Assembly (NCBI RefSeq): GCF_001457795.1
Contig: NZ_LN898211.1
Coordinates: forward strand, 62,001-126,000
Source: Olsenella massiliensis
Lineage (GTDB): Bacteria > Actinomycetota > Coriobacteriia > Coriobacteriales > Atopobiaceae
Length of the DNA stretch: 64,000 nt
Direction of reading: 5' to 3'
In this document: piece by piece, positions 3 to 34,167 of the stretch
Layout of the letters: every line of letters begins with the position of its first letter
Position numbering within the stretch: position 1 is the stretch's first letter
Translations under genes and position numbers: made by a program
Notes under the pieces: model-generated
What the model was told of the DNA's origin: nothing
Databases searched by the model: none
What the model saw: only the letters and a program-made list of their open reading frames with translations

Positions 3-359
3 CGGGCGATCGAGCTTGGCGAGAGGGGCGTCGCCCGGGTGCTGCGTGACGTCTGCGTGGGCTGCGGCCTCTGCGTGCGCGCCTGCCCGCAGGGCGTCAT
101 CGCGCTGGCGCCTCGTGACGCGACGATTCTCCCCTTGTGCTCCAACCACGAGCCGGGCGCCGTCGCGCGCGCATCCTGCGCGTCCAGCTGCGTCGCCTGC
201 GGCGTCTGCGAGCGCGTCTGCCCCGCTGACGCCATCCACGTCGTCAGCGAGTGCGCCACCTGCGACACGACCGCCTGCATAGCCTGCGGGCTCTGCGCCA
301 CGCGCTGCCCGCGCGGGGTCATCCATGACGCCGACGGCCTTTTGGCGCCCGCATACTAG
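3..359 (+). CDS. RnfB-like polyferredoxin, C-terminal part (5' end outside window)
   Basis: The frame is open from the left edge, so the N-terminus is missing. The visible 118 residues hold three CxxCxxCxxxCP clusters (CVGCGLCVRACP, CVACGVCERVCP, CIACGLCATRCP), each able to hold a [4Fe-4S] cluster. An LCSNHEPG stretch lies between the first two, and this spacing resembles the C-terminus of RnfB. RnfB feeds electrons between ferredoxin and NAD at the membrane Rnf complex. The gene ends 16 bp before the hydroxylase start, so it may be its electron partner. It could instead be the ferredoxin tail of another oxidoreductase, because the diagnostic N-terminus is not visible. Confidence 0.6.
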   Translation, partial: RAIELGERGVARVLRDVCVGCGLCVRACPQGVIALAPRDATILPLCSNHEPGAVARASCASSCVACGVCERVCPADAIHVVSECATCDTTACIACGLCATRCPRGVIHDADGLLAPAY

Positions 360-375
360 GAAGGAGGCGAGACGA

Positions 376-6822: not shown

Positions 6823-6942
6823 GACCCTGACGGCGCTGCGGCCGGGCGGCGGGTTCGTCCGCGGCGCCGTGACAACAGCCATGCGGCGGGGCGCGGGCTC
6901 GCCGCCGGAGACGGGAGGACGGAGTCACTACGAGGCAGCGTG

Positions 6943-6952: not shown

Positions 6953-6991
6953 GCGTTTGTATGTCGGTTTTTCCAGCAAGGAGGAAGCAAC

Positions 6992-8172: not shown

Positions 8173-8683
8173 GCGTCCATCCACGCCGCGGCGGCGTGCG
8201 GCGCCTGCGACAGACGCCCGCGCGCTGCCCTCCGCCGGCACTGCGGCATTCCGCCGCACTTCGGTATACCCTGCCAGATATAACGAAAAGTAATACAACA
8301 AAAAAATTTGTATGCCACTAACGGTTTGTTTGATACCGCACAAGCTGCGAGCTTCATCGGCGTTTTCGTTACCTGATACCATCAGGTCTGACAACCAGTG
8401 AGTGTTGGCGGGAATGCAGAGCTGTCAGTTCAACCACGGGCCCCTCGCATGCTGCGTGCGGCCTCTGGCACCTTCAAGACAGCGTGCAGGTGGTACCAAC
8501 GGGGGCGGCATCCTCGGGTCGCATGCGTCGTCGGGAGGGGACGAGGCGTTGGGGCACATCCATCACGATACCCCACCTGATCGTGCTGCATCATGGTCGC
8601 GCGCATGCCGGGCGCATCCCCAGGCGCCCGGGGCCCGGCGTGCGGGCACGGGAGATGGCGTGGCATCAGCGAAGGGGTGAGCC
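8173..8683. promoter_or_regulatory. AT-rich regulatory region in front of xdhABC
   Basis: This 511-bp gap holds no convincing gene. Its middle (8270-8340) is AT-rich for this genome. It contains GGTATACC (8263-8270), CTAACGGTTTGTT (8318-8330, shared with the yqeC/yedF region) and a perfect inverted repeat (8371-8387). The last 290 bp before the GGGGTGAG ribosome site of xdhA show nothing recognisable and may be a long leader. Confidence 0.5.
8371..8387. promoter_or_regulatory. Candidate operator, 7-bp inverted repeat
   Basis: ACCTGAT and ATCAGGT flank ACC as a perfect 7-3-7 inverted repeat, the size of a dimeric helix-turn-helix repressor site. It follows the AT-rich promoter zone of xdhABC. 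The regulator is not identifiable from this window. Confidence 0.45.
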
Positions 8684-11026
8684 ATGAAGAAGTTGAGAGA
8701 GGTGGGCAGGTCGGTCGTGCGCGTGGATGCGCGCGACAAGGTGACCGGTCGTGCCATGTACGCCGACGACCTCTGCCCCAAGCCGTGCCTTGAGGCGCGC
8801 ATCCTGCACGCGACGATAGGCAACGGACTCGTCAAGTCCATAGACGTCTCCAAGGCGCGCGAGGTGCCCGGCGTCGTCGCCGTGTACACCTGCTTCGACG
8901 TGCCCGACATCACCTATCCCGTGGCGGGGCATCCGTGGTACGCGGCGTCCAAGGCCGAAAAGCGCGACGTGGCCGACCGCAAGCTGCTCGATGCGCGCGT
9001 GCGTCTCTATGGCGACAACATCGCCGTCGTCGTGGCCGAGGACACCGTCGCCTGCGACAGGGGCCTCGCCAAGATCGAGGTCGAGTATGAGGAGTGGCCC
9101 GTCGTCTATGACCCCAAGGAGTCTCTCAAGGGCACCGAGCATCCCGTCCAGGACCGGAGGCCCGACAACCTCGTGGCCCACACGCTGGCCGAGACCAGCA
9201 AGGAGAAGCTCGCCGAGCTGGGCTATGCCAGCGTTGACGAGGCCCTTGCGGACCCGTGCCACCATCACGTCTCGATTCACGTCGAGAGCGCGGAGCAGTC
9301 CCAGGTGCACATCGAGACCTGCGTGTCCTTCTGCTACGGCGAGTCGGGCAGGATCGTCTGCGTCTCGTCCACCCAGATCCCCCACATCTGCCGCCGCGTC
9401 ATAGGCCAGGCGCTGGGCATCCCCTGGGGCGACGTCCGCGTGATCAAGCCCTACATCGGCGGCGGGTTCGGCACCAAGCAGGACATCCACTACGAGCCCC
9501 TCAACGCCTGGATCTGCCAGCAGCTGGGCGGCGCCTGCGTGCGCCTGGAGCTCAGCCGCGAGGAGCTGTTCTTTGCCACGAGCGGTCGCCAGCCCAAGAC
9601 GTTCGAGGTCGAGGCGACCGTCGATGACGACATGAACCTCCGCGCCCGCTCCATCCTGGCCTACTCCAACACGGGCGGCTACATTCACCACGGTCACGCC
9701 CTGGTGCTCAACTCGGTCAACTCCTTCCGCTGGCTGTACCACACGCAGGAGGACGTCATCCGCTGCGAGGCCTACACGGTCTACACCAACGGCCCCCACA
9801 CCGGTGCCATGCGCGCCTATGGCGTGCCCGAGGGCAACTGGGCCGCCGAGTGCCTCATGGGCGACATCGCCTATGACCGGGGGTGGGACGGCGTCGAGTT
9901 TCGCATGAAGAACGCCATCAGGCAGGGCTTCGTCGACGAGTTCTCGCCGGGCAACTACATCTCGTCGCGCAGCAACGGCCTGGCGGAGTGCGTCGAGAAG
10001 GGCAAGCGCTACATCGGCTGGGACGAGCACAAGGCGACCTACGCCAACGAGACGGGCCCGATTCGTCATGGCGTGGGCGTGTCCCTCTTCGTGTACAAGA
10101 CGGCCGTCGCCCCCTTCGCGCTCGAGACGGCCACGGCGTCCATGACGCTCAACCAGGACGGCTCCATCCAGCTCCAGATGGGCGCCACCGAGATCGGCCA
10201 GGGTGCCGACACCGTCTTCTCGCAGATGGCCGCCGAGGCCGTAGGCGTTGACACCGAGGACGTCCACATCGTCTCCCAGCAGGACACGGACGTCACGCCC
10301 TATGACTCCGGCGCCTACGCCTCGCGCCAGACCTACGTCTCGGGCACGGCGGTCAAGCAGACGGGCCAGGTGCTGCGCCAGAAGATCCTGGACTTTGCCC
10401 GCTTTCTGCACCCCGACGCCCAGGGCGAGCTTGACCTGCGCGACCACATGATCGTGGACGTGGTGGGCAACAAGGTCTGCGACCTTTGCGAGCTGGCGCT
10501 CGAGGCCTACTACAACATGGATCACAACGACCAGCTTCACGCCCACGAGACCGTCAACGTCCATACCAACGCCCTCGCCGTGGGCTGCACCTTCGCCGAG
10601 GTCACGGTGGACATGCCGCTGGGCCAGGTCACCGTCGACAGGATCATCAACGTGCAGGACAACGGTCGCCTCATCAACCCCAAGACCGTCGAGCAGCAGG
10701 TGCACGGCGGCATGTCGCAGTCCATCGGCTACGGGCTCTACGAGGAGCTGCTGGTGGACGAGAGGACGGGCCGCTGTCGCAACAACAACCTGCTCGACTA
10801 CAAGATTCCCACCACCATGGACCTGCCCGACCTCGAGGCGCAGTTTGTCGAGACGGACGAGCCCACCGCCCCCTACGGCAACAAGGCCGTGGGCGAGACG
10901 CCGACCATCTCCCCGGCGGCCGCCATCCGCGACGCCATCCTGGACGCGACGGGCGTCAAGTTCTACCACGAGCCGATGACCCCCCAGCGCCTCTTCGAGG
11001 GGTTCAGGAAGGAGGGACTCGTCTGA
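8684..11026 (+). CDS. xdhA: Xanthine dehydrogenase molybdopterin-binding subunit
   Basis: A 780-residue Mo-binding subunit of the xanthine dehydrogenase family (E. coli XdhA is 752 aa). The a/b hammerhead domain starts at VRVDARDKVTGRAMYADD near residue 12. Mo-cofactor contacts include GGGFGTKQDIHYE, GAMRAYGVPEG and a C-terminal GNKAVGETPTISPAA, where the Glu is the expected catalytic base. AAGGGGTGAG precedes the ATG. The stop overlaps the next start (TGATG), followed by the FAD and Fe-S subunits, so this is a three-subunit enzyme separate from the fused one at the left of the window. Hydroxylation of hypoxanthine or xanthine is the likely reaction. Confidence 0.92.
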   Translation: MKKLREVGRSVVRVDARDKVTGRAMYADDLCPKPCLEARILHATIGNGLVKSIDVSKAREVPGVVAVYTCFDVPDITYPVAGHPWYAASKAEKRDVADRKLLDARVRLYGDNIAVVVAEDTVACDRGLAKIEVEYEEWPVVYDPKESLKGTEHPVQDRRPDNLVAHTLAETSKEKLAELGYASVDEALADPCHHHVSIHVESAEQSQVHIETCVSFCYGESGRIVCVSSTQIPHICRRVIGQALGIPWGDVRVIKPYIGGGFGTKQDIHYEPLNAWICQQLGGACVRLELSREELFFATSGRQPKTFEVEATVDDDMNLRARSILAYSNTGGYIHHGHALVLNSVNSFRWLYHTQEDVIRCEAYTVYTNGPHTGAMRAYGVPEGNWAAECLMGDIAYDRGWDGVEFRMKNAIRQGFVDEFSPGNYISSRSNGLAECVEKGKRYIGWDEHKATYANETGPIRHGVGVSLFVYKTAVAPFALETATASMTLNQDGSIQLQMGATEIGQGADTVFSQMAAEAVGVDTEDVHIVSQQDTDVTPYDSGAYASRQTYVSGTAVKQTGQVLRQKILDFARFLHPDAQGELDLRDHMIVDVVGNKVCDLCELALEAYYNMDHNDQLHAHETVNVHTNALAVGCTFAEVTVDMPLGQVTVDRIINVQDNGRLINPKTVEQQVHGGMSQSIGYGLYEELLVDERTGRCRNNNLLDYKIPTTMDLPDLEAQFVETDEPTAPYGNKAVGETPTISPAAAIRDAILDATGVKFYHEPMTPQRLFEGFRKEGLV

Positions 11027-11907
11027 TGTACGACATCGAGTACCTGCACGAGGCCACGAGCGTCGAGGACGCCGTCCAGGTCCTGGCCCGCGACTCCCAG
11101 GCTCGCGTCATCGCCGGCGGCACCGACCTTCTGGTCAAGAACCGCGACGGCAAGTTTCCCGCCGCCCACCTCGTCTCGATCCATGAGCTTCACGACGAGC
11201 TCGACGGCGTCACGCTGGCCGACGACGGCACCGTCGAGATCGGCCCCATCACCTGGTTCCATCATGTGACCACGAGCCCCGTCATCCAGGCGACGGTCCC
11301 CACGCTGGGCGACGCCTGCGACACCCCCGGCGGCCCGCAGCTGCGCGTCTCGGGCACGATCGGCGGCAACGTGTGCAACGCGGCCACCTCGGCCGACACC
11401 GCCTCCACGCTGTATGCCTACGGCGCCCTGCTGGACGTGAGGAGCGTCCGCGGCGAGCGCACGATCCCCATCGAGGAGTGGTATGCCGGGCCCGGCAAAT
11501 CAACGCTGGCCCAGGACGAGCTGCTTGTGAGGATTCGGATCCCCAAGGACCACTATGAGGGGTTCACGGGCCACTACTTCAAGTACGGCAAGCGGCGCGC
11601 GCTTGAGATCGCGACGTTGGGCTGCTGCTGCCTCGTCAAGCTCTCCGCCGACAAGACGCTGGTGGACGACATCCGCCTCGCCTTTGGCGTCGCCGGCCCC
11701 ACGCCCCTGCGCGCCCTCAAGGCCGAGGAGGCCGTCCGCGGCCTGCCCCTCGCAAAGGCCGTGGAGGCGATAGGGGCGCTGGCTCAGGCCGACACCCATC
11801 CCCGTGACAGCTGGCGCGCCTCCAAGGCGTTTCGCCTGCAGCTGATCGGCGAGATGTCCAGGCGCTCGTTGGTGGCGGCGGCGCGCAAGGGAGGGGCGAC
11901 GCTATGA
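11026..11907 (+). CDS. xdhB: Xanthine dehydrogenase FAD-binding subunit
   Basis: A 293-residue subunit of the CO-dehydrogenase/xanthine-dehydrogenase FAD family. VIAGGTDLLVKNRDG (near residue 28) is the FAD pyrophosphate loop, and LRVSGTIGGNVCNAATSAD near residue 105 is the second FAD contact. It passes electrons from the Fe-S subunit to an acceptor. The start overlaps the stop of the Mo subunit by one base and its own stop lies inside the start region of the Fe-S subunit, so all three are translationally coupled. Confidence 0.93.
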   Translation: MYDIEYLHEATSVEDAVQVLARDSQARVIAGGTDLLVKNRDGKFPAAHLVSIHELHDELDGVTLADDGTVEIGPITWFHHVTTSPVIQATVPTLGDACDTPGGPQLRVSGTIGGNVCNAATSADTASTLYAYGALLDVRSVRGERTIPIEEWYAGPGKSTLAQDELLVRIRIPKDHYEGFTGHYFKYGKRRALEIATLGCCCLVKLSADKTLVDDIRLAFGVAGPTPLRALKAEEAVRGLPLAKAVEAIGALAQADTHPRDSWRASKAFRLQLIGEMSRRSLVAAARKGGATL

Positions 11908-12416
11908 TGGACATGAGAATTCTCACGTGCACGGTCAACGGCAAGAAGGTCCAGGTGGGCTACGACCCCCGCGAGTCCCTGCTTGACACGTTGCGCAACC
12001 GCCTTCATCTTACGAGCGTCAAGCGAGGCTGCGAGGTGGGGGAGTGCGGCGCCTGCACCGTCCTCGTGGACGGCGTCGCCACCGACACCTGCCTCTATCT
12101 GACGCAATGGGCGCAGGGCAAGGACATCCTCACGGTGGAGGGCCTCGCCGCCCCTGACGGGACGCTCGACCCCGTGCAGCAGGCCTTCGTGGACGAGTTT
12201 GCCGTCCAGTGCGGCTTCTGCATACCTGGGCTCATCATGAGCACGGAGGAGATCGTCCGCACGGGCAGGACGTACAGCCGCGACGAGCTGCGCAAGCTCC
12301 TCTCGGGCCATCTGTGCCGCTGCACCGGCTACCAGGACGTCATGAACGCCGTCGAGAAGGCCGTCAACTGGTGCGTCGAGCACGGATACTCAGACCAGGC
12401 CGGTGCTCGGGCCTAG
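11904..12416 (+). CDS. xdhC: Xanthine dehydrogenase [2Fe-2S] subunit
   Basis: A 170-residue subunit with two [2Fe-2S] domains. The plant-type cluster is in CEVGECGACTVLVDG, with a further Cys in DTCLYL. The helical-domain cluster is CGFCIPG...CRCTGY. Length and motifs match E. coli XdhC (159 aa). ATG occurs at 11904 and again at 11907; the first overlaps the FAD-subunit stop. It shuttles electrons from the Mo centre to FAD. Confidence 0.93.
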   Translation: MMDMRILTCTVNGKKVQVGYDPRESLLDTLRNRLHLTSVKRGCEVGECGACTVLVDGVATDTCLYLTQWAQGKDILTVEGLAAPDGTLDPVQQAFVDEFAVQCGFCIPGLIMSTEEIVRTGRTYSRDELRKLLSGHLCRCTGYQDVMNAVEKAVNWCVEHGYSDQAGARA

Positions 12417-14847: not shown

Positions 14848-15035
14848 GCCTGTCCTTTCGTCGTGGCAGCGAGGGGGTCGCAGCCCGACGGGGGGCTGCG
14901 ACCGTTCGTCGTCGTCCGCTAGCATACGACATCTTACGCGGCGCGACTCGACATGACGGGGCCGCCCGACACGCGACGACGCGTCCCAGGCGGCCCTGAC
15001 CTCGCTTTGCGCCGCCGTGCGTGGCGGCGGCGTCC

Positions 15036-16328
15036 CTACAGCATCTCGATGAAGGCCTCGACGCGGGTCTTCAGCTGCCCCTCGTCCTGCCCCGAGTAGT
15101 CGGTCGTTATGTGCATGAAGGGGATGCCCGCCTTTTCTGCGGCCTCCTCCATGCCAAAGGACTCCTGCTCGTAGATCGTGCAAAACTGCAGCGCGCAGTC
15201 GATGATGCCGTCCGCGTGCAGCTCCTTGGCCATGCGCACGACGTCCTCCTCGCGCCCGTGGTTGGGCGTGAAGATGGCGCACTGGATGTTGAGGTAGCGG
15301 TCCGCGATGTCATCGAGCATCTCGTCCACGGTGGCGCCCGTCTCGGGCACCAGGTCCTTGTAGTAGCGGCTGCCCGTGCAGTACTCCTCGCCCACGACGA
15401 CGGCCCCAGCCTTCTCGATCATGTTGAAGAGCTTCCAGTTGGGCACGGCCATGGGCGTGCCCGTGTAGAGGATGCGCTTGGCGCCCTTGGGGGCGACGCC
15501 CTCGCCGTCCTTGACCCTGCCCTCGCACTCGGCCGCCATCTCGTTGATGGCGCCGGTGAGGCGCGCGGAGTCGTCCATGAAGGCCGCCTGCACGGTGAGC
15601 AGCGAGTCAAGGCCCGAGATGGGCGTGGGGTCCGCGGCGCGCGTGGCCGAGAGGCGCTGGAGGGCCCGGCGCTTGTCGTTGGCGAGCTTGATGGCGGCGC
15701 GCAGGCTCTCGGCCGTGATCTTCTGGCCGGTCTCCTGCTCGATGCGCGCGGCGAGACGGCGCAGCTCGTTGCGCCACATCTGCCGGGTCTCGTCGGTGCG
15801 CACGTGCGGCACGTCTATGACGAAGGTGTTCTTGAGCTTGCCAAACTGCTCATAGGCCTTCTTCTTGCCGTCGCAGGTGTTCTCTCCAACCACCAGGTCG
15901 GCGCTCTCGATGTAGGGGCACACCCTTCCCAGCTTGAAGCCCATGAAGCCCTTGATGAGCGGGCAGGTGTTGCGCGGGACGTGCTTCTCGGCCTCGGCGG
16001 GGGCCCAGTCGGCGCCGGCGCACAGCCCCACCTCGACGGCTCCTGCGGCGGTGATGATCTCCTCGGGAACGTAGAGGCAGAAGCTGCCGATGACCTTCTT
16101 GGGCCGGGGCGAGCCGTCGCCCTGGGGGTCAACGAGCTCGCGAATGCGTCCCGAGTGCAGGTTGGTGGCCACGCCGTCAAGGTAGGCGGTGGACGCGGGA
16201 CGGTTTTCCTGCGTGAGGTACATGCTGCTGTACATCTGCCCGACGGCCTCAAGCAGGCCGTCATGCGCCTCGACGTCCATGTCAAGGCCCTCCCACATGC
16301 TTCGGTAGTCGTAGTCCTGCTCGCTCAT
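15036..16328 (-). CDS. 2-hydroxyacyl-CoA dehydratase / double-cubane-cluster-type reductase subunit
   Basis: A 430-residue member of the HgdB/BcrB/YjiM family. Clustered cysteines at 84, 103, 122, 137 and 152, with PEEIITAAGAVEV, NTCPLIKG and GENTCDGKKKAYE, match the Fe-S-binding core. More cysteines occur in EEYCTG and DCALQFC. Classical dehydratases and benzoyl-CoA reductases use two different subunits. A single gene beside an activator instead fits the homodimeric double-cubane-cluster proteins, which use ATP-driven electrons for very difficult reductions. ATG 16328 is preceded by GAGGAG; the upstream extension to 16427 is unlikely. It is divergent from its activator gene over a shared palindromic site. 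The substrate is unknown. Confidence 0.88.
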   Translation of the reverse strand: MSEQDYDYRSMWEGLDMDVEAHDGLLEAVGQMYSSMYLTQENRPASTAYLDGVATNLHSGRIRELVDPQGDGSPRPKKVIGSFCLYVPEEIITAAGAVEVGLCAGADWAPAEAEKHVPRNTCPLIKGFMGFKLGRVCPYIESADLVVGENTCDGKKKAYEQFGKLKNTFVIDVPHVRTDETRQMWRNELRRLAARIEQETGQKITAESLRAAIKLANDKRRALQRLSATRAADPTPISGLDSLLTVQAAFMDDSARLTGAINEMAAECEGRVKDGEGVAPKGAKRILYTGTPMAVPNWKLFNMIEKAGAVVVGEEYCTGSRYYKDLVPETGATVDEMLDDIADRYLNIQCAIFTPNHGREEDVVRMAKELHADGIIDCALQFCTIYEQESFGMEEAAEKAGIPFMHITTDYSGQDEGQLKTRVEAFIEML

Positions 16329-16428
16329 GACGCTCCTCTCCCGTGCCATCCTCTCCCGCGCGGCCCTCTTCCGCGCAGGCGACGTTCCGTCGGCCGTCGG
16401 CCGTCGGCCCGTCCACCGACGCCGCACC

Positions 16429-16450
16429 GCTATAGCTCACGAACTATAAC
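16429..16450. promoter_or_regulatory. Palindromic operator, copy 1 (double-cubane pair)
   Basis: GCTATAGCT-cacg-AACTATAAC, an inverted repeat with 9-bp arms (7 of 9 paired) and a 4-bp spacer, between the two divergent genes. A TATAAT box at 16464-16469 for the activator gene lies just downstream, so the site covers its -35 region. The same site, with perfect arms, is found at 32011-32032 between yqeC and yedF. Confidence 0.65.
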
Positions 16451-16517
16451 GATGGGTGGGTCGTATAATTACAAAAAATAAGGTTAAAAAACAAACGATT
16501 CGTTAGACGGGGGCATC

Positions 16518-17261
16518 ATGCAGGCGATTGGAATCGACGTCGGCTCGACGGCCACGAAGCTCGCAATCGTGCGGGACGGCGAGCTGAGATTTACCCACGT
16601 CATGCCCACCGGCTTCAGCGGGGCGCAGGCGGCCGAGACGGCGCGGTCGCTCCTTCTCGAGCGGGGTCTCCTCACGCGGGACGCCCGCGTCGTGGCGACG
16701 GGGTACGGGCGCGTCGCCGTTCCCTACGCCGACAAGGTCGTCACGGAGATCGGCTGCCACGGCAGGGGGTCCGCTTACCTCTTTGGGCCCGACGGCGTGG
16801 TCGTTGACGTGGGCGGCCAGGACACCAAGGTCATCCAGCTGGCGGACGGGCGCGTCAGGCGCTTTGTGATGAACGACAAGTGCTCCGCCGGGACGGGCAA
16901 GTTCCTCGAGGTCATGGCCACGCGCATGGGGGTCACCCAGGAGCGCCTGAGCGAGCTTGCGGCACGGGGAGAGGGCGCGACCATCTCGAGCATGTGCACG
17001 GTCTTTGCCGAGTCCGAGGTCATCTCGCTCGTGGGTCGCGGCGAGCCTCTGGAGAATATAGCCCATGCGGTCATCGAGTCGGTCGCGGGCCGCGTCGCGG
17101 CGCTGGCCCGTCAGCTTGACGGAAGCCCGCGTCTGCTCACCGGGGGCCTGTGCGACAACGCCTACGTGGTCGCGCGCATCGGTGCGGCCCTGGGCTGCGA
17201 GTTGCGCACCTGCCCCGAGGCACGCTTCGCCGGGGCCATCGGCGCCGCCATGCTCGCCTAG
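16518..17261 (+). CDS. ATP-dependent [4Fe-4S] activator of the double-cubane protein (BadF/BadG/BcrA/BcrD family)
   Basis: A 247-residue ASKHA-fold ATPase. GIDVGSTATKLA (residues 5-16) is the phosphate-1 motif and VVVDVGGQDTKVI (near 95) the second. C122 in NDKCSAGTGKF and C160 in SSMCTVFAESEV are placed like the two cysteines that bridge one [4Fe-4S] cluster across the dimer in HgdC. The protein uses ATP hydrolysis to push one low-potential electron into its partner. GGGGG lies before ATG 16518 and TATAAT at 16464. It faces the partner gene across 190 bp that contain the palindromic operator. Confidence 0.93.
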   Translation: MQAIGIDVGSTATKLAIVRDGELRFTHVMPTGFSGAQAAETARSLLLERGLLTRDARVVATGYGRVAVPYADKVVTEIGCHGRGSAYLFGPDGVVVDVGGQDTKVIQLADGRVRRFVMNDKCSAGTGKFLEVMATRMGVTQERLSELAARGEGATISSMCTVFAESEVISLVGRGEPLENIAHAVIESVAGRVAALARQLDGSPRLLTGGLCDNAYVVARIGAALGCELRTCPEARFAGAIGAAMLA

Positions 17262-17558: not shown

Positions 17559-17596
17559 TATTCAAGGTCGGCAGCTATCTTGAAGGGGGAATGGCA

Positions 17597-18811
17597 ATGG
17601 ATCCGGCAATCGAATGGGTCACCAACGGCATGCCCAAGAGCGAGGATGCGAACCTGCCCGTCATGTCGCTCGACAACGTCGCCACGGCGCGGGCGTTTCA
17701 TGGGAGCTTCCCGCAGTATGCCGTCACGCCGCTGGCCAACCTGGCCGGCATGGCGCAGGACCTGGGCCTGGGCGGCCTGTACGTCAAGGACGAGAGCTAC
17801 CGCTTTGGCCTGAACGCCTTCAAGGTCCTGGGCGGCTCGTTTGCCATGGCGCGCTACATCGCCGAGGAGACCGGCAGGGACGTGCGCGAGACGACCTTTG
17901 ACTACCTCACGTCCGACCAGCTGCAGCGTGACTTTGGCCATGCGACGTTCTTCACGGCCACCGACGGCAACCACGGTCGCGGCGTGGCCTGGGCCGCCAG
18001 GCGCCTGGGGCAGAAGGCCGTGGTGCACATGCCCAAGGGCTCCACGCGGACGCGCTTCGACAACATCGCCAAGGAGGGCGCCGAGGTCACGATCGAGGAG
18101 CTCAACTACGACGACTGCGTCCGCCTGGCCGCCAAGGAGGCGGGCCAGACCGAGCACGGCGTGATCGTGCAGGACACGGCCTGGGAGGGCTACGAGAAGA
18201 TTCCGTCCTGGATCATGCAGGGGTACGGCACCATGGCCGCGGAGGCCGCCGAGCAGCTGAGGCAGCTCGAGGTCAACCGTCCCACGCACGTGTTCGTGCA
18301 GGCCGGCGTGGGCTCGCTCGCCAGTGCCATGGTGGGCTACTTTGCCAACCTCTTCCCCAGCTGCCCCCCGCGCTTCGTCATCATGGAGGCACGGGCCGCC
18401 GACTGTCTGTACAGGGGCGCCCTCGCCGCTGACGGCGACCCGCGCGTCGTGGGCGGCGACCTTCAGACCATCATGGCCGGCCTCGCGTGCGGCGAGCCCA
18501 ACACCATCGGCTGGGACATCCTGCGCAACCATGCCGACGCCTTCCTCTCCTGCCCGGACTGGGTCGCCGCAAAGGGCATGAGGATGCTCGCCGCCCCCGT
18601 CAAGGGCGACCCCGCCGTGACCTCCGGCGAGTCCGGCGCGGTGGGCATGGGAGCCGTCGCCGCCCTCATGCGCGACGCCCGCTACGCCGAGCTGCGCGAC
18701 GCCCTTGGGCTGGGCCGCGACTCGCAGGTCCTGCTCTTCTCGACCGAGGGGGACACCGACCCCGTTCGCTACCGCGACGTGGTCTGGGACGGCGCCTGGG
18801 CAAGCAAGTAG
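17597..18811 (+). CDS. ygeX: Diaminopropionate ammonia-lyase
   Basis: A 404-residue PLP enzyme of the YgeX family (E. coli 398 aa), which splits 2,3-diaminopropionate into pyruvate and two ammonia. The PLP-binding Lys is in [13 protein letters not shown] near residue 76; [13 protein letters not shown] is the substrate/phosphate loop and [11 protein letters not shown] the glycine-rich PLP-phosphate site. ATG 17597 is chosen over 17591 because AAGGGGGA ends at 17590. It heads the ygeX-ygeY-ygeW-carbamate kinase series. In the gut-bacterial purine clusters such genes handle nitrogen-rich products of ring opening. Confidence 0.92.
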
Positions 18812-18884
18812 GTCGGCACGCCCCCGCGGGCGCGACCGCACCGCAGGGCGGGCAAGGATTCGTGACACGACGTTGGAGGAACGC

Positions 18885-20267
18885 ATGAAGAATCTCGACT
18901 ACGACAAGATCAAGAAGGCCGCGGCGGACTACGGCGAGGACATGACCCGCTTCCTGCGCGCCATGATCTCGCATCCCAGCGAGAGCTGCGAGGAGAGGGA
19001 GGTCGTCGCCTGCATCGAAAAGGAGATGAGGCGCCTCGACTTTGACGAGGTCAAGGTTGACGGCCTGGGCAACGTCATGGGCTTCATGGGCGAGGGGGAC
19101 AAGATCCTCTGCATGGACGGCCACATCGACACGGTGGGCATCGGCAACCGCGACAACTGGGAGGCGGACCCCTACGAGGGCTATGAGACCGAGGAGCTCA
19201 TCTACGGCCGCGGCGGCTCCGACCAGGAGGGCGGCGTCTGCTCCGCCGTCTATGCCGCCAAGATGATGAAGGACCTCGACCTCATCCCCGAGGGCTACAA
19301 GATCATGGTCGTCGGCACGGTCCAGGAGGAGGACTGCGACGGCATGTGCTGGCAGTACATCTACAACAAGGACGGCATCAAGCCCGAGTTCGTCATCTCC
19401 ACCGAGCCCACCGACGGCGGCATCTACCGCGGCCATCGCGGTCGCATGGAGATCAGGGTTGACGTGCGCGGCGTCTCCTGTCACGGCTCGGCTCCCGACC
19501 GCGGCGACAACGCCATCTACAAGATGGCCGACATCATCGCCGACGTCCGGGCCCTCAACAACAACGGATGCGACGAGTCCACGGACATCAAGGGCCTCGT
19601 CAAGATGCTCGACCCCGCGTACAACCCCGACCACTTCGAGGACGCCCGCTTCCTGGGTCGCGGCACCTGCACCGTCTCGCAGGTCTTCTTCACGAGCCCG
19701 AGCCGCTGCGCCGTGGCCGACTCCTGCGCCATCTCCATCGACCGCCGCATGACGGCGGGTGAGACCTGGGAGTCCTGCCTTGAGGAGGTCCGCAGCCTTC
19801 CTGCCGTCAAGAAGTACGGCGACGACGTGAAGGTCTCCATGTACATGTACGACCGTCCCTCCTGGACCGGCGAGGTCTACCAGACGGAGTGCTACTTCCC
19901 CACCTGGATCAACAAGGAGTCCGCGCCGCACGTCAAGGCCCTCGTCGAGGCCCACAAGGCCCTCTTCGGCGACGAGCGCATCGGCTGCGAGCCCTCCATG
20001 GACAAGCGCGCCGGCCGCCCGCTCGTCGACAAGTGGACCTTCTCCACGAACTGCGTCGCCATCCAGGGCCGCTACGGCATCCCCTGCGTGGGCTTCGGGC
20101 CCGGCGCCGAGTCTCAGGCGCACGCTCCCAACGAGATCACCTACAAGCAGGACCTCGTGACCTGCGCGGCGCTCTACACCGCGGCGCTCAACCTCTATGA
20201 CGGCTCCGCCGCCTCAAGCGACGCGACCGAGTTTCGCGCAGGGCTCACCACCAACGACATCAAGTAG
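18885..20267 (+). CDS. ygeY: M20-family peptidase/deacylase YgeY
   Basis: A 460-residue metal-dependent amidohydrolase of the M20 family. [11 protein letters not shown] (near residue 80) and [10 protein letters not shown] supply the metal-binding His and Asp, VQEEDCDG the catalytic Glu pair, and [12 protein letters not shown] the lid His. Good Shine-Dalgarno TTGGAGGA lies before ATG 18885. It is somewhat longer than E. coli YgeY (about 400 aa), mostly at the C-terminus. It probably removes an acyl or carbamoyl group from a purine-ring fragment before YgeX; that order is inferred from cluster composition. Confidence 0.9.
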
Positions 20268-20279
20268 ACCAGGCTTTGC

Positions 20280-20307
20280 GGGCGCCCGTCGCCGACGGCG
20301 GGCGCCC
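20280..20307. other. Intergenic GC hairpin between ygeY and ygeW
   Basis: GGGCGCCCG (20280-20288) and CGGGCGCCC (20299-20307) form a perfect 9-bp stem with a 10-nt loop, 13 bp after the ygeY stop. No T run follows, so it is more likely an RNA-stability or processing hairpin than a terminator. Confidence 0.5.
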
Positions 20308-20342
20308 TGACGCTGACGACCCATCAACGGGAGGGGAACCAC

Positions 20343-21545
20343 ATGGACCGCACGTTTGACGCCTACCTCGAGGAGCTTGGCAAGCTCGACTTCTCCGACA
20401 TGTTCAACAACGACTTCCTGCACACCTGGGACAAGACCACCGACGAGCTCAGGGCCCTGTACCTTGTCGCGGACGCCCTGCGCAACCTGCGCGAGCGCAA
20501 CATCTCCACGCGCATCTTCGACTCCGGCCTCGCGGTCTCCAACTTCCGCGACAACTCCACGCGCACGCGCTTCTCGTTTGCCTCGGGCACCAACCTGCTC
20601 GGCCTGCAGCAGCAGGACCTCGACGAGAGCAAGTCCCAGGTGGCCCACGGCGAGACCGTGCGCGAGACCGCGACGATGATCAGCTTCATGGCCGACGTCA
20701 TCGGCATCCGCGACGACAAGTTCATCGGCGAGGGTGACGCGTACATGAGGGAGGTTGCCTCGTCCGTCGAGGAGTCCTGGCGCGACGGCATCCTGGACCA
20801 CCGCCCCACGCTCGTCTCGCTGCAGTCCGACTCGGACCATCCCACGCAGTCCTCGGCCGACCTTCTCTACCTCATCAACGAGTTTGGCGGACTTGACGAG
20901 CTCAGGGGCAAGAAGGTTGCCGTCACCTGGGCCTACTCGCCCTCGTATGGCAAGCCCCTCAGCTGCCCGCAGTCGCTCATCATGCTGCTCACGCGCTTTG
21001 GCATGAACGTGTCTTTGGCCCACCCCGAGGGCTACGACCTCATGCCCGAGCTCGTGGAGCGCGCGGGCGCCTACGCTGCCGAGTCGGGCGCGACGTTCAC
21101 GAAGGGCACCGACATGGCCGCCGCCTTCGAGGGCGCCGACATCGTCATCCCCAAGAGCTGGGCGCCCTATGCCGCCATGGAGAAGCGCACCAAGCTGTAC
21201 GCCGCAGGCGACGCCAAGGGCATCGACGAGCTCGAGCAGCAGCTGCTGGCTCAGAACGCGACGCACCAGGACTGGTGCTGCACCCGAGAGCTCATGGAAA
21301 AGACCGCCAACGGCCAGGACACCATCTACATGCACCCGCTGCCCGCCGACATCAACGGCGTCTCCTGCGAGCACGGCGAGGTCGAGAGCGAGGTCTTTGA
21401 CGCCCATCGCGAGGGCCTGTACAAGGAGGCCAGCTACAAGCCGTACGCCGTGGCCGCCATGATCTTCCTGCAAAAGGTCAAGGATCCCAAGGCCATGCTC
21501 AAGGCCCTCGAGGAGCGCGGGGTCGCCCGCTGGGTGAGCGAGTAG
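20343..21545 (+). CDS. ygeW: Knotted carbamoyltransferase YgeW
   Basis: A 400-residue member of the aspartate/ornithine carbamoyltransferase superfamily, YgeW branch (E. coli 396 aa). The carbamoyl-phosphate loop STRTR lies in DNSTRTRFSFASG near residue 75, and MHPLPADINGVSCEHGE is the second conserved site. It likely runs in the catabolic direction, splitting a carbamoylated product to carbamoyl phosphate, which the next gene (carbamate kinase, 13 bp downstream) turns into ATP. The physiological acceptor is not settled for this family. GGGAGGGG precedes the ATG. Confidence 0.92.
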   Translation: MDRTFDAYLEELGKLDFSDMFNNDFLHTWDKTTDELRALYLVADALRNLRERNISTRIFDSGLAVSNFRDNSTRTRFSFASGTNLLGLQQQDLDESKSQVAHGETVRETATMISFMADVIGIRDDKFIGEGDAYMREVASSVEESWRDGILDHRPTLVSLQSDSDHPTQSSADLLYLINEFGGLDELRGKKVAVTWAYSPSYGKPLSCPQSLIMLLTRFGMNVSLAHPEGYDLMPELVERAGAYAAESGATFTKGTDMAAAFEGADIVIPKSWAPYAAMEKRTKLYAAGDAKGIDELEQQLLAQNATHQDWCCTRELMEKTANGQDTIYMHPLPADINGVSCEHGEVESEVFDAHREGLYKEASYKPYAVAAMIFLQKVKDPKAMLKALEERGVARWVSE

Positions 21546-21558
21546 GGGCGAGGCGAGC

Positions 21559-22500
21559 ATGTCTGACACGATCGTCGTCGCCCTGGGCGGCAACGCCCTG
21601 GGCAAGGACCTTCCCGGGCAGATGGCGGCCGTTCGCCGCACCGCCAGGTCCATCGCGGACTTGGCGGAGGCGGGCAACGACGTCGTGGTCGTGCACGGCA
21701 ACGGCCCTCAGGTGGGCATGATCCAGGAGGCCATGACGCAGCTCACGAGGTCTGACCCCGCGCGCTACGCCCCCTGCCCCCTCTCCGTCTGCGTCGCCAT
21801 GAGCCAGGGCTACATTGGCTACGACCTGCAGAACGCCATCCGCGAGGAGCTTGCGAACCGCGGCGTCCGACGCGGCGTCACGACGGTGCTCACGCAGGTC
21901 GAGGTTGACCGGAATGACGAGGCCTTTGGGCGTCCCACCAAGCCCATCGGCGCGTTCATGTCAAAGGACGAGGCGGACGCCCTGGTGAGGGACCGCGGAT
22001 GTCACGTGGTCGAGGACGCGGGCCGCGGCTGGCGGCAGGTCGTCGCTTCGCCGTCGCCCGTCTCCATCGTCGAGCTTGACACGATCCGCTCCCTCGTCGC
22101 CGCGCGGCACGTGGTCATCGCCTGCGGCGGGGGTGGCGTGCCCGTCTGTCGCGCCGAGGGAAACCATCTCAAGGGCGTCCCGGCGGTCATCGACAAGGAC
22201 TTCGCCGCGGCGCGCCTTGCGGAACAGCTTGACGCGCGCGAGCTCATCATCCTCACGGCGGTCGAGAAGGTCGCCGTCCACTTTGGCAGGCCAGATGAGC
22301 GCTGGCTGGACGACCTGGGACCCGAGGAGGCGCAGGGCTACATCGCCTCGGGCGAGTTTGCGCCCGGCTCCATGCTTCCCAAGGTCCAGGCCGCGCTGCA
22401 GTTTGCCTGCTCGGGCGTCGGGAAAAGCTCGCTCATCACCGAGCTCGACCGGGCGGCCGAGGGAATCGCCGGCAAGACGGGAACAAGGATTCATAGCTAG
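21559..22500 (+). CDS. yqeA: Carbamate kinase
   Basis: A 313-residue amino-acid-kinase-fold enzyme that makes ATP from carbamoyl phosphate and ADP. VALGGNALGKDL (near residue 7), VVHGNGPQVGMI (near 50) and VIACGGGGVPV (near 187) are the nucleotide and carbamate sites. It directly follows ygeW, completing an energy-yielding step of the purine route. The symbol follows the E. coli gene of the same cluster; arcC would fit equally on sequence. Confidence 0.93.
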   Translation: MSDTIVVALGGNALGKDLPGQMAAVRRTARSIADLAEAGNDVVVVHGNGPQVGMIQEAMTQLTRSDPARYAPCPLSVCVAMSQGYIGYDLQNAIREELANRGVRRGVTTVLTQVEVDRNDEAFGRPTKPIGAFMSKDEADALVRDRGCHVVEDAGRGWRQVVASPSPVSIVELDTIRSLVAARHVVIACGGGGVPVCRAEGNHLKGVPAVIDKDFAAARLAEQLDARELIILTAVEKVAVHFGRPDERWLDDLGPEEAQGYIASGEFAPGSMLPKVQAALQFACSGVGKSSLITELDRAAEGIAGKTGTRIHS

Positions 22501-22573
22501 TCATAGCGTCGCCGCGGGCCGGGCCCAGGCTCCAAGGGACCGACCCGCGGCCCGATGACGGGAGGCGATGCCC

Positions 22574-23539
22574 ATGGGTCCAGGCACGGTGACGTACCTC
22601 GCCGACGAGGGGGGCGGGCGCATATTTGGCCCCGGCCCCTATCGCCTGCTCAAGAAGGTTGACGAGTGCGGGAGCCTCTCGGCCGCGGCGCGCTCCATGG
22701 GCATGAGCTACTCGAAGGCCCTCCGCATCCTCAAGAGGGCGGAGGAGGGGCTGGGCGAGCGGCTCGTCGAGCGGCGCATCGGCGGCGAGAGCGGAGGCAG
22801 CTCGTCCCTCTCCGCAGCCGGGCGGCTGCTGATGCGCCGCTTCGAGCTGTGGAACGAGGCCTGCTCGGCCGCCGCGCGCACGTCGTTTGCGAGCGCCTTC
22901 GCCGGGACCCAGCAGGTGGCGCGCCTGGGCTGCGTGGTCATGGCGTCGGGCCTGGCCCGACGCTTTGGCAGGCAGAAGCTCATGGAGCCCCTTGACGGAA
23001 CGCCCATGCTGGCGCGGGTGCTCGACGCGCTGGGGGACCCTCGCGTGGAGACGGTGGTGACGACCCGCGACCCCCGAGTGCGCGCCCTCTGCGAGGGTCG
23101 GGGCGTGCGTTGCGTCCTGCACGACGGCGAGCGGAGGAGCGACTCGGTACGCGAGGGCATGCGAGCCTTAGGAGAGCGCGCCGGCTACCTCTTCGTCTCG
23201 GGCGACCAGCCCCTCGTCTCGGCGACGAGCGTCTCGGCCGTCGTTGACGAGCACGTCCGCCATCCGAGCGCCATCGTGAGACTGGCGTGGAAGGACGAGC
23301 CGGGCGCCCCCGTGCTGTTTCCCGGCGTCTTCAGGGAGGCGCTGCTTGGGCTTGAGGGCAGCCAGGGCGGTCTTGCGATCTTGAGGAGAAGCCCGGACCT
23401 TGCCGCGACGGTGCGCCTGGTCCAGGCGTCGTCGCCGGGCGAGTTGATGGACGTTGACACGCAGGACGACCTCGCGCGGGTGAGGGAGGCTCTTGACGCC
23501 GCCCAGCGCGCGCAGGACCCTGCGACAGGAGGGGAGTGA
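22574..23539 (+). CDS. Fusion of ModE-like winged-helix domain and MocA/YgfJ nucleotidyltransferase
   Basis: A 321-residue two-domain protein. Residues 1-105 resemble the ModE/LysR-type winged helix: GPYRLLKKVDECGSLSAAARSMGMSY is followed by a basic wing. From about residue 115 comes a MobA-like NTP-transferase domain: VVMASGLARRFGRQKL, VSGDQPLV and DVDTQDDL. MocA/YgfJ proteins attach CMP to molybdopterin for xanthine-dehydrogenase-type enzymes, so this domain fits the hydroxylases here. The N-terminal domain suggests DNA or molybdate binding. ATG 22574 is better spaced from GGAGG (22561-22565) than ATG 22568. Its stop lies 5 bp before the hydantoinase start. Confidence 0.85.
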   Translation: MGPGTVTYLADEGGGRIFGPGPYRLLKKVDECGSLSAAARSMGMSYSKALRILKRAEEGLGERLVERRIGGESGGSSSLSAAGRLLMRRFELWNEACSAAARTSFASAFAGTQQVARLGCVVMASGLARRFGRQKLMEPLDGTPMLARVLDALGDPRVETVVTTRDPRVRALCEGRGVRCVLHDGERRSDSVREGMRALGERAGYLFVSGDQPLVSATSVSAVVDEHVRHPSAIVRLAWKDEPGAPVLFPGVFREALLGLEGSQGGLAILRRSPDLAATVRLVQASSPGELMDVDTQDDLARVREALDAAQRAQDPATGGE

Positions 23540-23544
23540 GGCCC

Positions 23545-24921
23545 ATGGCAACAAGGGACGTGATACGCGGGGGATCCCTGGTGCTTCCCGAGGGGCTGGT
23601 CCAGGGTGACCTCGTGATGGAGGGCTCGACCATCTCGGCCGTGGTGCCGGGCGGCGTCGGTGACGACGTCCTGGAGGGCGCGCGGTGCCATGACGCGAGC
23701 GGCTGCTACGTCTTTCCGGGGTTCATAGACGCCCACACCCACCTGCAGTGCTGGACGGGCATGGACTGGACGGCTGACAGCTTTGAGACGGGCACGCGCG
23801 CCGCGGCGTGCGGCGGAACCACGACGGTCGTTGACTATGCGACCCAGGACAAGGGCATGACCATGCCGCAGGCGCTCCAGGAGTGGCAGCGCCGCGCCGA
23901 AGGGTGCTGCGCGACGGACTACGCCTTCCACATGGCCATCGCCGACTGGAACGACCGGACCAGGAGCGACCTCCCGTCCCTGCGCGAGGCGGGGGTGTGC
24001 TCGTTCAAGACCTATTTTGCCTATGACCACCTGCGTCTGGATGACGCGCAGACGCTCAAGGTGCTGGAGGGCCTCGCGCCCCTGGGGGCCACGCTCTGCG
24101 TCCACTGCGAAAACGGCACGCTGGTCAACGCCCTGCAGGAGCGCGCCATCGCCTCGGGCGTCACCGGGCCCGAGGGGCATCCCCTGAGCAGGCCCGACGT
24201 CTGCGAGGCGGAGGCCGTCGCGCGGCTCCTCATGATCGCGCACCTGGCGGGAGACGCCCGGGTGAACGTCGTGCACCTTTCCACGAGGCTGGGGCTTGAG
24301 GTCATCCGCGCCGCCAAGGCGCGCGGGCAGAGGAACGTCTTCGTGGAGACCTGCCCCCAGTACCTGCTGCTGGACGAGACCCGCTATCTGGAGCCCAACT
24401 TCGGCGGCGCCAAGTACGTCATGAGCCCCCCGCTGAGGAGCGCGTCCGACCGTGCCGCGCTTCGCGAGGCGGTGGCCGCGGGCGAGATCGACACCATATC
24501 CACGGACCACTGCTCCTTCAACCTCATGGGCCAGAAGGACCGCGGTCGTGAGGACTTCCGCAAGATCCCCAACGGCGGCCCCGGCATAGAGCACCGGCCG
24601 GCGCTCGTCATGACCGCCTTCGCGGACGTGCTTGGCCCCCGCGAGCTCTGCCGGCTCCTTTCCGAGAACCAGGCTCGCGTGTTTGGCATGTACCCGCGCA
24701 AGGGCGTCTTGGCCGTGGGTTCCGACGCGGACGTCTGCGTGTGGGACCCTGCGCGGCGCTGGACGATCAGTGCGCACGACCAGCACCAGAACGTTGACTA
24801 CACGCCGTATGAGGGCATGGTCTGCCGGGGTCGCGCCCGCCTGGTGTTCGTCGGCGGCACGCTCGTCGCGCGCGACGGCGAGCCCACGGACGCCACGCCG
24901 GGAAGGTACGTGAGAAGGTAG
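23545..24921 (+). CDS. hyuA: D-hydantoinase/dihydropyrimidinase family hydrolase
   Basis: A 458-residue cyclic amidohydrolase (E. coli HyuA/YgeZ 461 aa). GFIDAHTHLQ (near residue 58) gives the first metal ligands, SFKTYFAY (near 155) the carboxylated Lys, and later HCENG, HLST and TDHCSF complete the site. The family opens hydantoin-like rings; in the purine cluster it probably opens a ring of a uric-acid-derived intermediate. AGGAGGGG (23527-23534) favours ATG 23545 over the GTG at 23536. It belongs with the preceding fusion gene. Confidence 0.9.
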   Translation: MATRDVIRGGSLVLPEGLVQGDLVMEGSTISAVVPGGVGDDVLEGARCHDASGCYVFPGFIDAHTHLQCWTGMDWTADSFETGTRAAACGGTTTVVDYATQDKGMTMPQALQEWQRRAEGCCATDYAFHMAIADWNDRTRSDLPSLREAGVCSFKTYFAYDHLRLDDAQTLKVLEGLAPLGATLCVHCENGTLVNALQERAIASGVTGPEGHPLSRPDVCEAEAVARLLMIAHLAGDARVNVVHLSTRLGLEVIRAAKARGQRNVFVETCPQYLLLDETRYLEPNFGGAKYVMSPPLRSASDRAALREAVAAGEIDTISTDHCSFNLMGQKDRGREDFRKIPNGGPGIEHRPALVMTAFADVLGPRELCRLLSENQARVFGMYPRKGVLAVGSDADVCVWDPARRWTISAHDQHQNVDYTPYEGMVCRGRARLVFVGGTLVARDGEPTDATPGRYVRR

Positions 24922-25088: not shown

Positions 25089-25475
25089 ATGCCCATCTTC
25101 GCAATCAAGACCGACAAGGCGCCTGCGGCCCTCGGGCCCTACTCCGCCGGCACCGTCGCCACGGGCCAGACGATGCACGTGTCGGGCCAGCTCGGCATCG
25201 ACCCCGCCACGGGCGACCTGGCGGGCGAGGGCGTCGAGGAGCAGACGCGCCAGAGCCTCGCGAACGTCAAGGCCATCCTCGAGGCGGCGGGCGCGAGCAT
25301 GGCTGACGTCGCCGAGACCGAGGTCCTTCTTGCCGACATCGCCGACTTTGCGGCCATGAACAAGGTGTACGGGGAGTTCTTCGCCGAGCCCTACCCCGCG
25401 CGCGCCGCCTTCCAGGTTGCCGCCCTTCCCAAGCCGGGCGCCAAGGTCGAGATCAAGGCCATCGCGCATCGCTAG
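25089..25475 (+). CDS. ridA: RidA/YjgF family imine deaminase
   Basis: A 128-residue RidA protein, usual length. GPYSAG (near residue 18), SGQLGIDP and YPARAAFQV, with the conserved Arg for substrate carboxylate, are typical of the active RidA group that hydrolyses enamine/imine intermediates to keto acids and ammonia. YgeX is a PLP lyase that releases aminoacrylate-type intermediates, so RidA at the end of this run makes metabolic sense. AAAGGAAG precedes the ATG. It is the last gene of the purine island before the repeat/adhesin insertion. Confidence 0.95.
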
Positions 25476-31965: not shown

Positions 31966-32010
31966 AAGGTTACCTAACTGTTTGTTAGTATATGGTAAGT
32001 GAGCGACACC

Positions 32011-32032
32011 GTTATAGTTCTGTAACTATAAC
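32011..32032. promoter_or_regulatory. Palindromic operator, copy 2 (yqeC/yedF)
   Basis: GTTATAGTT-ctgt-AACTATAAC, a perfect 9-bp inverted repeat with a 4-bp spacer. It lies in the divergent promoter region of yqeC and yedF and matches the site at 16429-16450. CTAACTGTTTGTT (31974-31986), seen also before xdhABC, is nearby. Confidence 0.75.
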
Positions 32033-32085
32033 AATCAGCCACTGCCGGCGTGACGCTGGTTCCCGGCACAAGGAGGGGATGTCAC

Positions 32086-32697
32086 ATGCATATCGATGCG
32101 AGAAACCTAGCCTGTCCCCGTCCCGTCGTCCTCGCCCTTGAGGCCCTGCCCAAGCTCAAGCCGGGCGAGAGCCTTGACATCCTGGTCAACGACGACGTCG
32201 CCTCGGCCAACCTCACACGCCTCGCCGCAGAGAAGGGCTGTGCGCTGACGACGGTCGCGCAGGGCCAGGAGACGACCCTCACCCTCACGCCGAACGCCCC
32301 CGTCGAGCAGAGCGCCTCCGCGTCGGCCGAGGCCGCCGGCTTCTGCGAGATTCCCGGTCGTGGCGACGCCGTGATCGTGGTTGACGCCGACACCATGGGA
32401 CGCGGCAGCGAGGAGCTTGGACGCATCCTGGTCAAGGGGCTCCTGTACGCCCTGGCCCATCAGGATCAGGTGCCGCGCCTGGCGCTCTTCTACAACGGCG
32501 GCGCGCACCTCACCTGCGAGGGGAGCGAGTCTCTGGACGACATCCGCGAGCTCGAGGCGCGCGGGACCCAGATTCTGACCTGCGGCACCTGCCTTGACTT
32601 TTATGGCATCCGCGAGCGGCTCGCCGTGGGCGGCGTGACGAACCTCTACGAGATCGCCAAGGTCTTTGCCGAGAACCCCGGCGTGACGGTGCTCTAG
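32086..32697 (+). CDS. yedF: Selenium metabolism protein YedF (TusA-like + DsrE-like)
   Basis: A 203-residue two-domain protein. Residues 1-72 are a SirA/TusA-like domain with the CPxP motif (NLACPRPVV, Cys near 10), which in the family carries sulfur or selenium. The second part (about 90-203) is DsrE-like, with VVDADTMGRGSEELG and LTCGTCLDFYGI. The family marks bacteria with SelD and selenium-dependent hydroxylases and probably carries selenium between donor and acceptor. AGGAGGGG (32071-32078) sets ATG 32086. It is the first gene of the + strand block that runs to mogA. Confidence 0.92.
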   Translation: MHIDARNLACPRPVVLALEALPKLKPGESLDILVNDDVASANLTRLAAEKGCALTTVAQGQETTLTLTPNAPVEQSASASAEAAGFCEIPGRGDAVIVVDADTMGRGSEELGRILVKGLLYALAHQDQVPRLALFYNGGAHLTCEGSESLDDIRELEARGTQILTCGTCLDFYGIRERLAVGGVTNLYEIAKVFAENPGVTVL

Positions 32698-33917: not shown

Positions 33918-34154
33918 ATGGGACGAAGACTCGAGGCACGGACGGTGGCCGCGTTTGACTCCACGCACGAGGCGCTCGAGGCGGAGCGCATCTGCCGCGA
34001 GCGGGGGGTGGCGGGCCGGCTCATCCCGACGCCCACCGCCATCCGCGCGGACTGCGGGCTGGCCTGGGCCATGCCGCCCGAGGCCCGAGGTGACTTTGAG
34101 GAGGCGGCGCGCCACGGCTTCGTGGTCGCGGGCCTGTACGACCTGGAGCTTTGA
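33918..34154 (+). CDS. DUF3343 small selenium/sulfur-carrier-like protein
   Basis: A 78-residue protein resembling DUF3343. The N-terminal strand-helix TVAAFDSTHEALEAERICRERG precedes IRADCGLAW, whose Cys would be the carrier residue. Such proteins are found beside yedF-type and SelD genes and are proposed to ferry persulfide or perselenide. It starts 5 bp after the aminotransferase stop and ends 13 bp before yqeB, suggesting a hand-over chain: lyase, carrier, then SelD/YqeB. Confidence 0.8.
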   Translation: MGRRLEARTVAAFDSTHEALEAERICRERGVAGRLIPTPTAIRADCGLAWAMPPEARGDFEEAARHGFVVAGLYDLEL

Positions 34155-34167
34155 GGAGGTGGCAGGG

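Follow-up and report, generated by a model that had tools for sequence, protein, structure and literature searches.

Within a 64,000-nt stretch of the genome of Olsenella massiliensis, a gut-type anaerobe (contig NZ_LN898211.1; this whole stretch is hereafter the window), a double-cubane-cluster protein (DCCP) and the ATPase that is its activase are encoded by neighboring genes inside an island of purine, selenium and molybdenum genes. Our favored reading, to which we give a little better than even odds (a probability of about 0.55), is that the two proteins form an ATP-driven, low-potential electron-transfer enzyme serving the selenium/molybdenum module, that this enzyme is probably expressed together with that module, and that it likely reduces a selenium species. 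In several phyla, DCCP genes recur beside the selenium genes yedF and selD much more often than chance would give, and the pair is independent of the purine genes once one leaves the organism's own taxonomic family. What is new here is a ModE-type dyad at the DCCP/activase promoter that resembles dyads before yedF-selD-modABC, xdhA and ssnA.

Identity of the DCCP and its activase

The initial annotation had described a 430-residue HgdB/BcrB-type protein and an HgdC-type activator with cysteines C122 and C160, and profile and structure-based comparisons bear out both. The first gene (15036..16328, minus strand, with an ATG start codon at 16328) encodes a double-cubane-cluster reductase of the long subtype, whose 430-residue product scores 468 bits against NF040772, the family of double-cubane-cluster-containing anaerobic reductases (cut-off 350), and 406 bits against PF06050. 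The solved DCCP structures 6ENO and 7YYL, from Carboxydothermus, can be aligned with residues 7-430 of the protein (431 bits). The cysteines C84, C103, C122, C137, C152, C317, C350 and C383 are invariant among 16 aligned sequences, and each of the eight stands opposite a cysteine of 6ENO when the alignment is read by eye. The second gene (16518..17261, plus strand) encodes a 247-residue BadF/BcrA/HgdC-type ATPase that scores 235 bits against TIGR00241 (cut-off 125) and also matches 7YYL_E, with its C122 and C160 aligned opposite cysteines of 1HUX. As the two genes are divergent, DCCP and ygeX cannot belong to one operon.

No other gene in the genome, which is 97% complete, matches PF06050, which makes this a single-subunit DCCP and not a two-subunit benzoyl-coenzyme A (CoA) reductase or 2-hydroxyacyl-CoA dehydratase. 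The DCCP falls far under the cut-offs of the two-subunit families (NF052456, 105 bits against 700; TIGR03190, 86 against 454; TIGR02263, 65 against 421; TIGR03191, 27 against 449). Those enzymes share the superfamily and the type of activase, but they combine two unlike catalytic subunits and act on a CoA substrate (PMC11971306), whereas here a single gene scores under their cut-offs. The solved DCCP and its activase are the closer likeness, with alignment over nearly the full length, one catalytic subunit, conserved cysteines and an activase partner; the present pair differs in its purine/selenium/molybdenum island, its predicted ModE-type control and its divergent genes. Escherichia coli YjiM/YjiL is likewise a DCCP above the family cut-off with an activase gene beside yjiM, although YjiM is shorter (383 codons), its annotated neighbors include no selenium, molybdenum or purine gene, and the locus has no dyad. 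At L194, L199 and L206 and at the Collinsella loci L056-L058, a long and a short DCCP paralogue sharing about 40% identity are arranged in tandem and possibly form heterodimers.

Recurrence of DCCP genes beside selenium genes

Gene neighborhoods were compared among 80 named loci from a scan of genome contigs with the DCCP alignment (the best 80 of 547), 35 of them from Coriobacteriia (L040-L074) and 45 from outside the family set (L075-L119). The family set comprises 101 genomes at least 90% complete, i.e., our own genome and 100 drawn from its family, and presence in it means a match above the curated cut-off. Within 10 kb on either side of the DCCP, 19 of the 35 Coriobacteriia loci have selD, yedF or a lyase-like gene, another 11 carry at least one of ygeX, ygeY and close xdh homologues, and the remaining 5 show neither group; one of the 19 selenium-type loci (L072) also has more distant genes of the xanthine dehydrogenase (XDH) type. 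The placement of the pair in a purine island, which the initial annotation had pointed out, is therefore real and recurrent. At the 45 loci outside the family set, selD or yedF is nearby in 9, while ygeX, ygeY, ygeW and ssnA are nearby in none, and one locus (L110) has a ygfK-like match at 39%. Inside the family set, the closest yedF or selD lies within 5 kb of the DCCP in 16 of 32 genomes, and ygeX does so in 9.

In the phylum of Desulfofustis glycolicus, a DCCP is present in 75 of 197 genomes. Among 73 stretches around these genes, selD was matched in 12, yedF in 15 and one or the other in 22 (at least 80 bits), against a chance expectation of 0.3-0.7 for a single-copy gene. Purine-type matches in the same stretches are few: xdh-like genes occur at 3 loci, one locus has hyuA and ygeW matches of 26-27%, and another has an ssnA match of 28%.

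In a tree of DCCP sequences, the window DCCP belongs to a group (support 93/99, not starred) of 13 Atopobiaceae-type sequences; purine genes adjoin 12 of them, and yedF, the lyase-like gene and selD adjoin the other (L049). Both L049 and its sister L050 are recorded as strains of Parafannyhessea umbonata, but in L050 the DCCP is beside ygeX. Given this contrast, the position of the DCCP by ygeX seems to reflect a local rearrangement inside a combined island.

Distribution within and outside the family

Matches in the 101 family-set genomes number 32 for DCCP, 56 for ygeX, 54 for ygfK, 51 for ssnA, 57 each for yedF and selD, 56 for yqeB and 7 for selB. The 32 DCCP genomes include 30 with ygeX, 30 with ygfK, 31 with selD and 31 with yedF, so that DCCP is associated with both ygeX (Fisher P = 7e-8) and selD (P = 3e-9), values that are uncorrected for kinship and concern two nearly inseparable traits. 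Since ygeX, ygfK, yedF, selD and yqeB largely travel together, we rejected within-family co-occurrence as a proof of one role or the other. DCCP is absent from 23 of the 52 genomes that have both ygeX and ygfK and from 26 of the 57 with selD, which makes the pair essential to neither trait.

Among the DCCP genomes, one (G046) alone clearly separates the selenium from the purine markers: it has DCCP, selD and selB but has no ygeX, ygfK or ssnA above cut-off and no yqeB match. Two others (G024 and G095) each miss one marker and are fragmented assemblies. Additionally, every selB genome of the family set carries a DCCP (7 of 7), and together with G046 these genomes lean toward the selenium link. 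A separate observation concerns selD itself, which has an in-frame TGA in eight genomes (G004, G020, G027, G030, G044, G046, G060 and G079) and likely encodes a selenocysteine-containing SelD there; the seven selB genomes of the family are all among these eight.

For the 45 DCCP genomes outside the family set, a whole-genome search found selD in 41 and ygeX in only 1, a contrast that favors the selenium link. The initial annotation had held that a purine role would be contradicted if the pair were equally common in genomes lacking purine genes, and this is in spirit what is seen outside the family, with 44 of 45 genomes lacking ygeX; inside the family the opposite holds, with DCCP in 30 of 56 genomes with ygeX and in 2 of 45 without. 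In 14 control genomes, DCCP, selD and selB were all matched in the same two, those of E. coli and Methanocaldococcus jannaschii.

A ModE-type dyad in the shared promoter region

The region between the divergent genes contains the dyad CGCTATAGCTCACGAACTATAACG (16428..16451), 100 bp before DCCP and 66 bp before the activase gene. A pattern search located a second dyad, CGTTATAGTTCTGTAACTATAACA (32010..32033), before yedF and a third, CGGTATACCCTGCCAGATATAACG (8262..8285), 398 bp before xdhA. A 22-bp core is matched with no mismatch at two window sites, that of DCCP/activase and that before yedF (32011), and in 0 of 100 shuffles even with 3 mismatches allowed; the pattern was written from its two sites and so shows their likeness, not an independent prediction. 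The broader form of the dyad is CGTTAT-N12-ATAACG, from which each window dyad departs by 1 mismatch at the N12 spacing. The site just before E. coli modA fits this form exactly, and we take that site to be the ModE operator. With dyads of the modA type before them, the DCCP/activase pair, yedF and xdhA are predicted members of a ModE-type regulon.

The window and 55 Coriobacteriia loci (1.13 Mb) were scanned with up to 1 mismatch, which gave 31 matches at the N12 spacing as against 0, 2, 1 and 2 at N10, N11, N13 and N14, and 0-2 N12 matches in each of 20 shuffles. DCCP or the activase gene begins no more than 350 bp beyond 15 of these 31 sites (12 of 26 once duplicate stretches are removed). 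Of the 52 Coriobacteriia DCCP genomes, 12 have the dyad before DCCP or the activase gene when 1 mismatch is allowed and 20 when 2 are allowed; at the latter setting the spacing controls N9, N10, N11, N13, N14 and N15 gave 0, 0, 1, 0, 1 and 1 genomes.

Further dyads stand before yedF-selD-modABC, yqeB and, in our own genome, ssnA, as well as before xdh-containing runs. The ssnA dyad lies to the left of the window (L193:656-679, 1 mismatch, about 183 bp before the gene) and suggests that the ssnA-ygfK run would share a regulon with the pair. The upstream region of ygeX in the window has no dyad better than 3 mismatches. We rejected a motif shared by the pair and ygeX, for which we found only a few G+C-rich 14-mers with 2 mismatches (6 against 0.95 expected in simple shuffles) besides the 3-mismatch dyad. 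In the Desulfofustis phylum, dyads with 1 mismatch also occur some 2 kb upstream of xdhBCA-like genes at two DCCP-bearing loci (L163:13012 and L166:10837).

The purine, selenium and molybdenum island

The neighbors named by the initial annotation are as it described them, with ade (adenine deaminase) and xdhABC on one side of the pair and ygeX on the other. Reading from the left, the island begins with a selenium-dependent XDH gene (325..3150, plus strand; TIGR03311, 1114 bits, cut-off 830), followed by genes of a B6/PnrA-like ATP-binding cassette (ABC) importer (3172-8086) that is possibly a purine or nucleoside importer, then xdhA, xdhB and xdhC (8684..12416, plus strand; NF043082, NF043083 and NF043084, all above cut-off) and ade. 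Between ade and DCCP is an open frame (14453-14932, minus strand) with no Pfam or NCBIfam match. To the right of the pair, profile matches identify ygeX, ygeY, ygeW, arcC, a fusion gene and hyuA (17591..24921, plus strand) as the lower uric-acid pathway. The fusion (22568..23539, plus strand) joins a ModE-like/LysR-type helix-turn-helix (HTH) domain to a MobA/MocA-like nucleotidyltransferase (PF00126 and PF12804 above cut-off; TIGR03310 under it, 104 bits against 186), i.e., a regulator joined to a molybdenum-cofactor maturation enzyme, and is our candidate reader of the dyad.

Farther right lies the selenium/molybdenum module, all on the plus strand for the genes whose coordinates follow: yedF (32050..32697; TIGR03527, 178 bits, cut-off 110), a class V aminotransferase resembling selenocysteine lyases and cysteine desulfurases (32717..33913; PF00266 above cut-off), yqeB, the accessory protein of selenium-dependent molybdenum hydroxylases (33955..34974; TIGR03309, 339 bits, cut-off 220), and selD, the selenide water dikinase (34979..36037; TIGR00476, 399 bits, cut-off 125), which has no in-frame stop. 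The aminotransferase remains under the cut-offs of TIGR01977 (344 bits against 377) and of NF040779, SclA (307 against 525). An XdhC-type factor, modABC, moaA and moaC complete this side. Genes for a RidA-type protein (Ribonuc_L-PSP, 25089-25475) and for polyphosphate kinase 2 (PPK2, 44179-45138) are in or near the island.

With selD and yqeB present and selB unmatched, our genome has the trait of a selenium-dependent molybdenum hydroxylase without selenocysteine. No selB match was found in the 97% complete genome (selA and tRNA-Sec were not searched), and the only visible use of selenium is therefore in the molybdenum hydroxylases. Selenium use of this kind would be of the "orphan SelD" type, as the term is used in the available part of PMC2276186.

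The statement that ssnA and ygfK are not in the window is literally true but reflects an edge effect, as a check of the DNA places ssnA at contig positions 57362-58690 and ygfK at 58809-61787 and the window begins at 62001, about 0.2 kb farther on. The genome therefore has the reductive uric acid pathway, with YgfK, SsnA, YgeW, YgeY and YgeX above cut-off and a HyuA-type hydantoinase. In this pathway, the E. coli version of which is XdhD-YgfK-SsnA-HyuA-YgeW-YgeY-YgeX, yanthine is produced by XdhD and loses its aromaticity through YgfK; ring opening by SsnA and HyuA follows, and YgeW, YgeY and YgeX complete the breakdown (PMC12507026, PMC12990295). With YgfK, the pathway has its ring reductase without the DCCP pair. 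The words "double-cubane" and "2-hydroxyacyl" do not occur in PMC12507026, and the pair is not a named component of the pathway.

Weighing the proposed role

By analogy with the solved relatives, the ATPase activator would charge the double-cubane protein, and the charged protein would then serve the module that assembles the purine pathway's selenium-dependent molybdenum hydroxylases. Its most likely step would be to reduce elemental selenium, selenite, or a perselenide carried by YedF or by the lyase-like protein, to selenide for SelD; alternatively, the pair may provide the reducing power with which selenium is transferred to molybdenum in concert with YqeB. We propose this chemistry because of the gene context and the low-potential, ATP-driven nature of the DCCP family, and we infer the substrate, the direction of regulation and the binding by a ModE-like protein. 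A more ambitious version, in which the DCCP and ATPase are a dedicated selenium/molybdenum cofactor reductase whose nitrogenase-like, ATP-driven electrons yield selenide or load selenium onto molybdenum for the enzymes with which gut anaerobes consume urate, under a ModE-type molybdate switch together with the module, is tentative and has the odds against it.

A link between DCCPs and selenium is already in print in provisional form, a dicubane cluster protein being "provisionally linked to selenium metabolism" in the accessible part of the preprint PMC10418091. For Slackia heliotrinireducens, a STRING table of Lin et al. 2015 (PMC5322559) lists an activase and a 2-hydroxyglutaryl-CoA dehydratase subunit with YedF, a selenocysteine lyase and SelD, the same company that the pair keeps here; the table also has SelA and SelB, whereas our genome has no selB match, and the pair is not discussed by the authors in the parts of that paper covered. 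Among top-ranked results in open-licence literature, we found no paper that places a DCCP in a purine cluster or under ModE.

Several observations weigh against the selenium/molybdenum reading. The family-set genomes that have selD and no DCCP indicate that selenium use does not need the protein. Outside the family set, 4 of the 45 DCCP genomes have no selD match, and the proportion of 41 with selD has no matched DCCP-free baseline. E. coli yjiM-yjiL adjoins no annotated selenium gene and has no dyad, and we found no selenium activity of a DCCP in the accessible literature. At up to 2 mismatches the dyad is absent before DCCP or the activase gene in 32 of 52 Coriobacteriia genomes, several of the genomes that bear it are close kin, and the candidate reader scores 62 bits against the ModE model TIGR00637, under its cut-off of 98.5. 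Finally, 118 DCCP loci outside the family set gave 4 matches at the N12 spacing and 4, 2, 3 and 0 at N10, N11, N13 and N14. With no enrichment there and no dyad at yjiM, we rejected the dyad as a general DCCP feature and regard it as a feature of the lineage.

We also considered that the pair is a generic anaerobic small-molecule reductase, acting on azide, hydrazine or similar toxicants, that sits in the island by chance. DCCPs do reduce acetylene, hydrazine and azide, with a physiological relevance called unclear in the accessible text of PMC11971306, and a generic role fits the selD genomes that have no DCCP. Nevertheless, it is unlikely in view of how often DCCP genes of several phyla adjoin selD and yedF, well beyond the chance expectation, and of a dyad with exact spacing that is common to the pair and the selenium/molybdenum genes. 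A little more doubtful is cleavage of the C-Se bond, by which the pair would salvage selenium from methylated or organic compounds: the available portion of PMC10418091 has DCCP genes in clusters proposed for methyl-selenide salvage, but no corrinoid or methyltransferase gene was recognized among the scanned window proteins, which do not take in all open frames of the window.

A role as low-potential electron donor of a molybdenum urate reductase (XdhD/XdhAC type), whose physiological donor has been described as undiscovered, is possible but less likely than the selenium/molybdenum reading, and we hold it to be slightly more doubtful again than C-Se cleavage. The predicted ModE-type control common to the pair, xdhA and ssnA would suit such a donor, but nearly all outside DCCP genomes lack ygeX, the 23 family genomes with ygeX and ygfK and no DCCP manage without it, and E. 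coli XdhD-YgfM is reported to use NADH in the accessible part of PMC12990295. That the pair itself reduces (dearomatizes) uric acid, xanthine or yanthine in the manner of benzoyl-CoA reductase, as the initial annotation suggested for uric acid and xanthine, is very improbable and was rejected: superfamily resemblance, the 11 purine-type Coriobacteriia loci, ygeX in 30 of 32 family DCCP genomes and a ModE-type box common to the pair, xdhA and ssnA speak for it, but YgfK with SsnA does this step in the published pathway as far as the accessible accounts go, both genes are present just beyond the left edge of the window, only one PF06050 gene is in the genome, and the distribution of DCCP does not follow the purine genes outside the family set.

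Implications

Across genomes, the pair is linked to the handling of selenium and molybdenum and not to the breaking of the purine ring, which corrects the reading that such a pair opens that ring and gives the DCCP family a testable job. O. massiliensis offers a clean test case: it has one DCCP and no selB match, and it apparently uses selenium for molybdenum hydroxylases only, next to a pathway that degrades urate, a compound of importance in gout. Should the pair prove to be needed here, both a role for the DCCP family and a missing reductive step of bacterial selenium use would become testable by growth.

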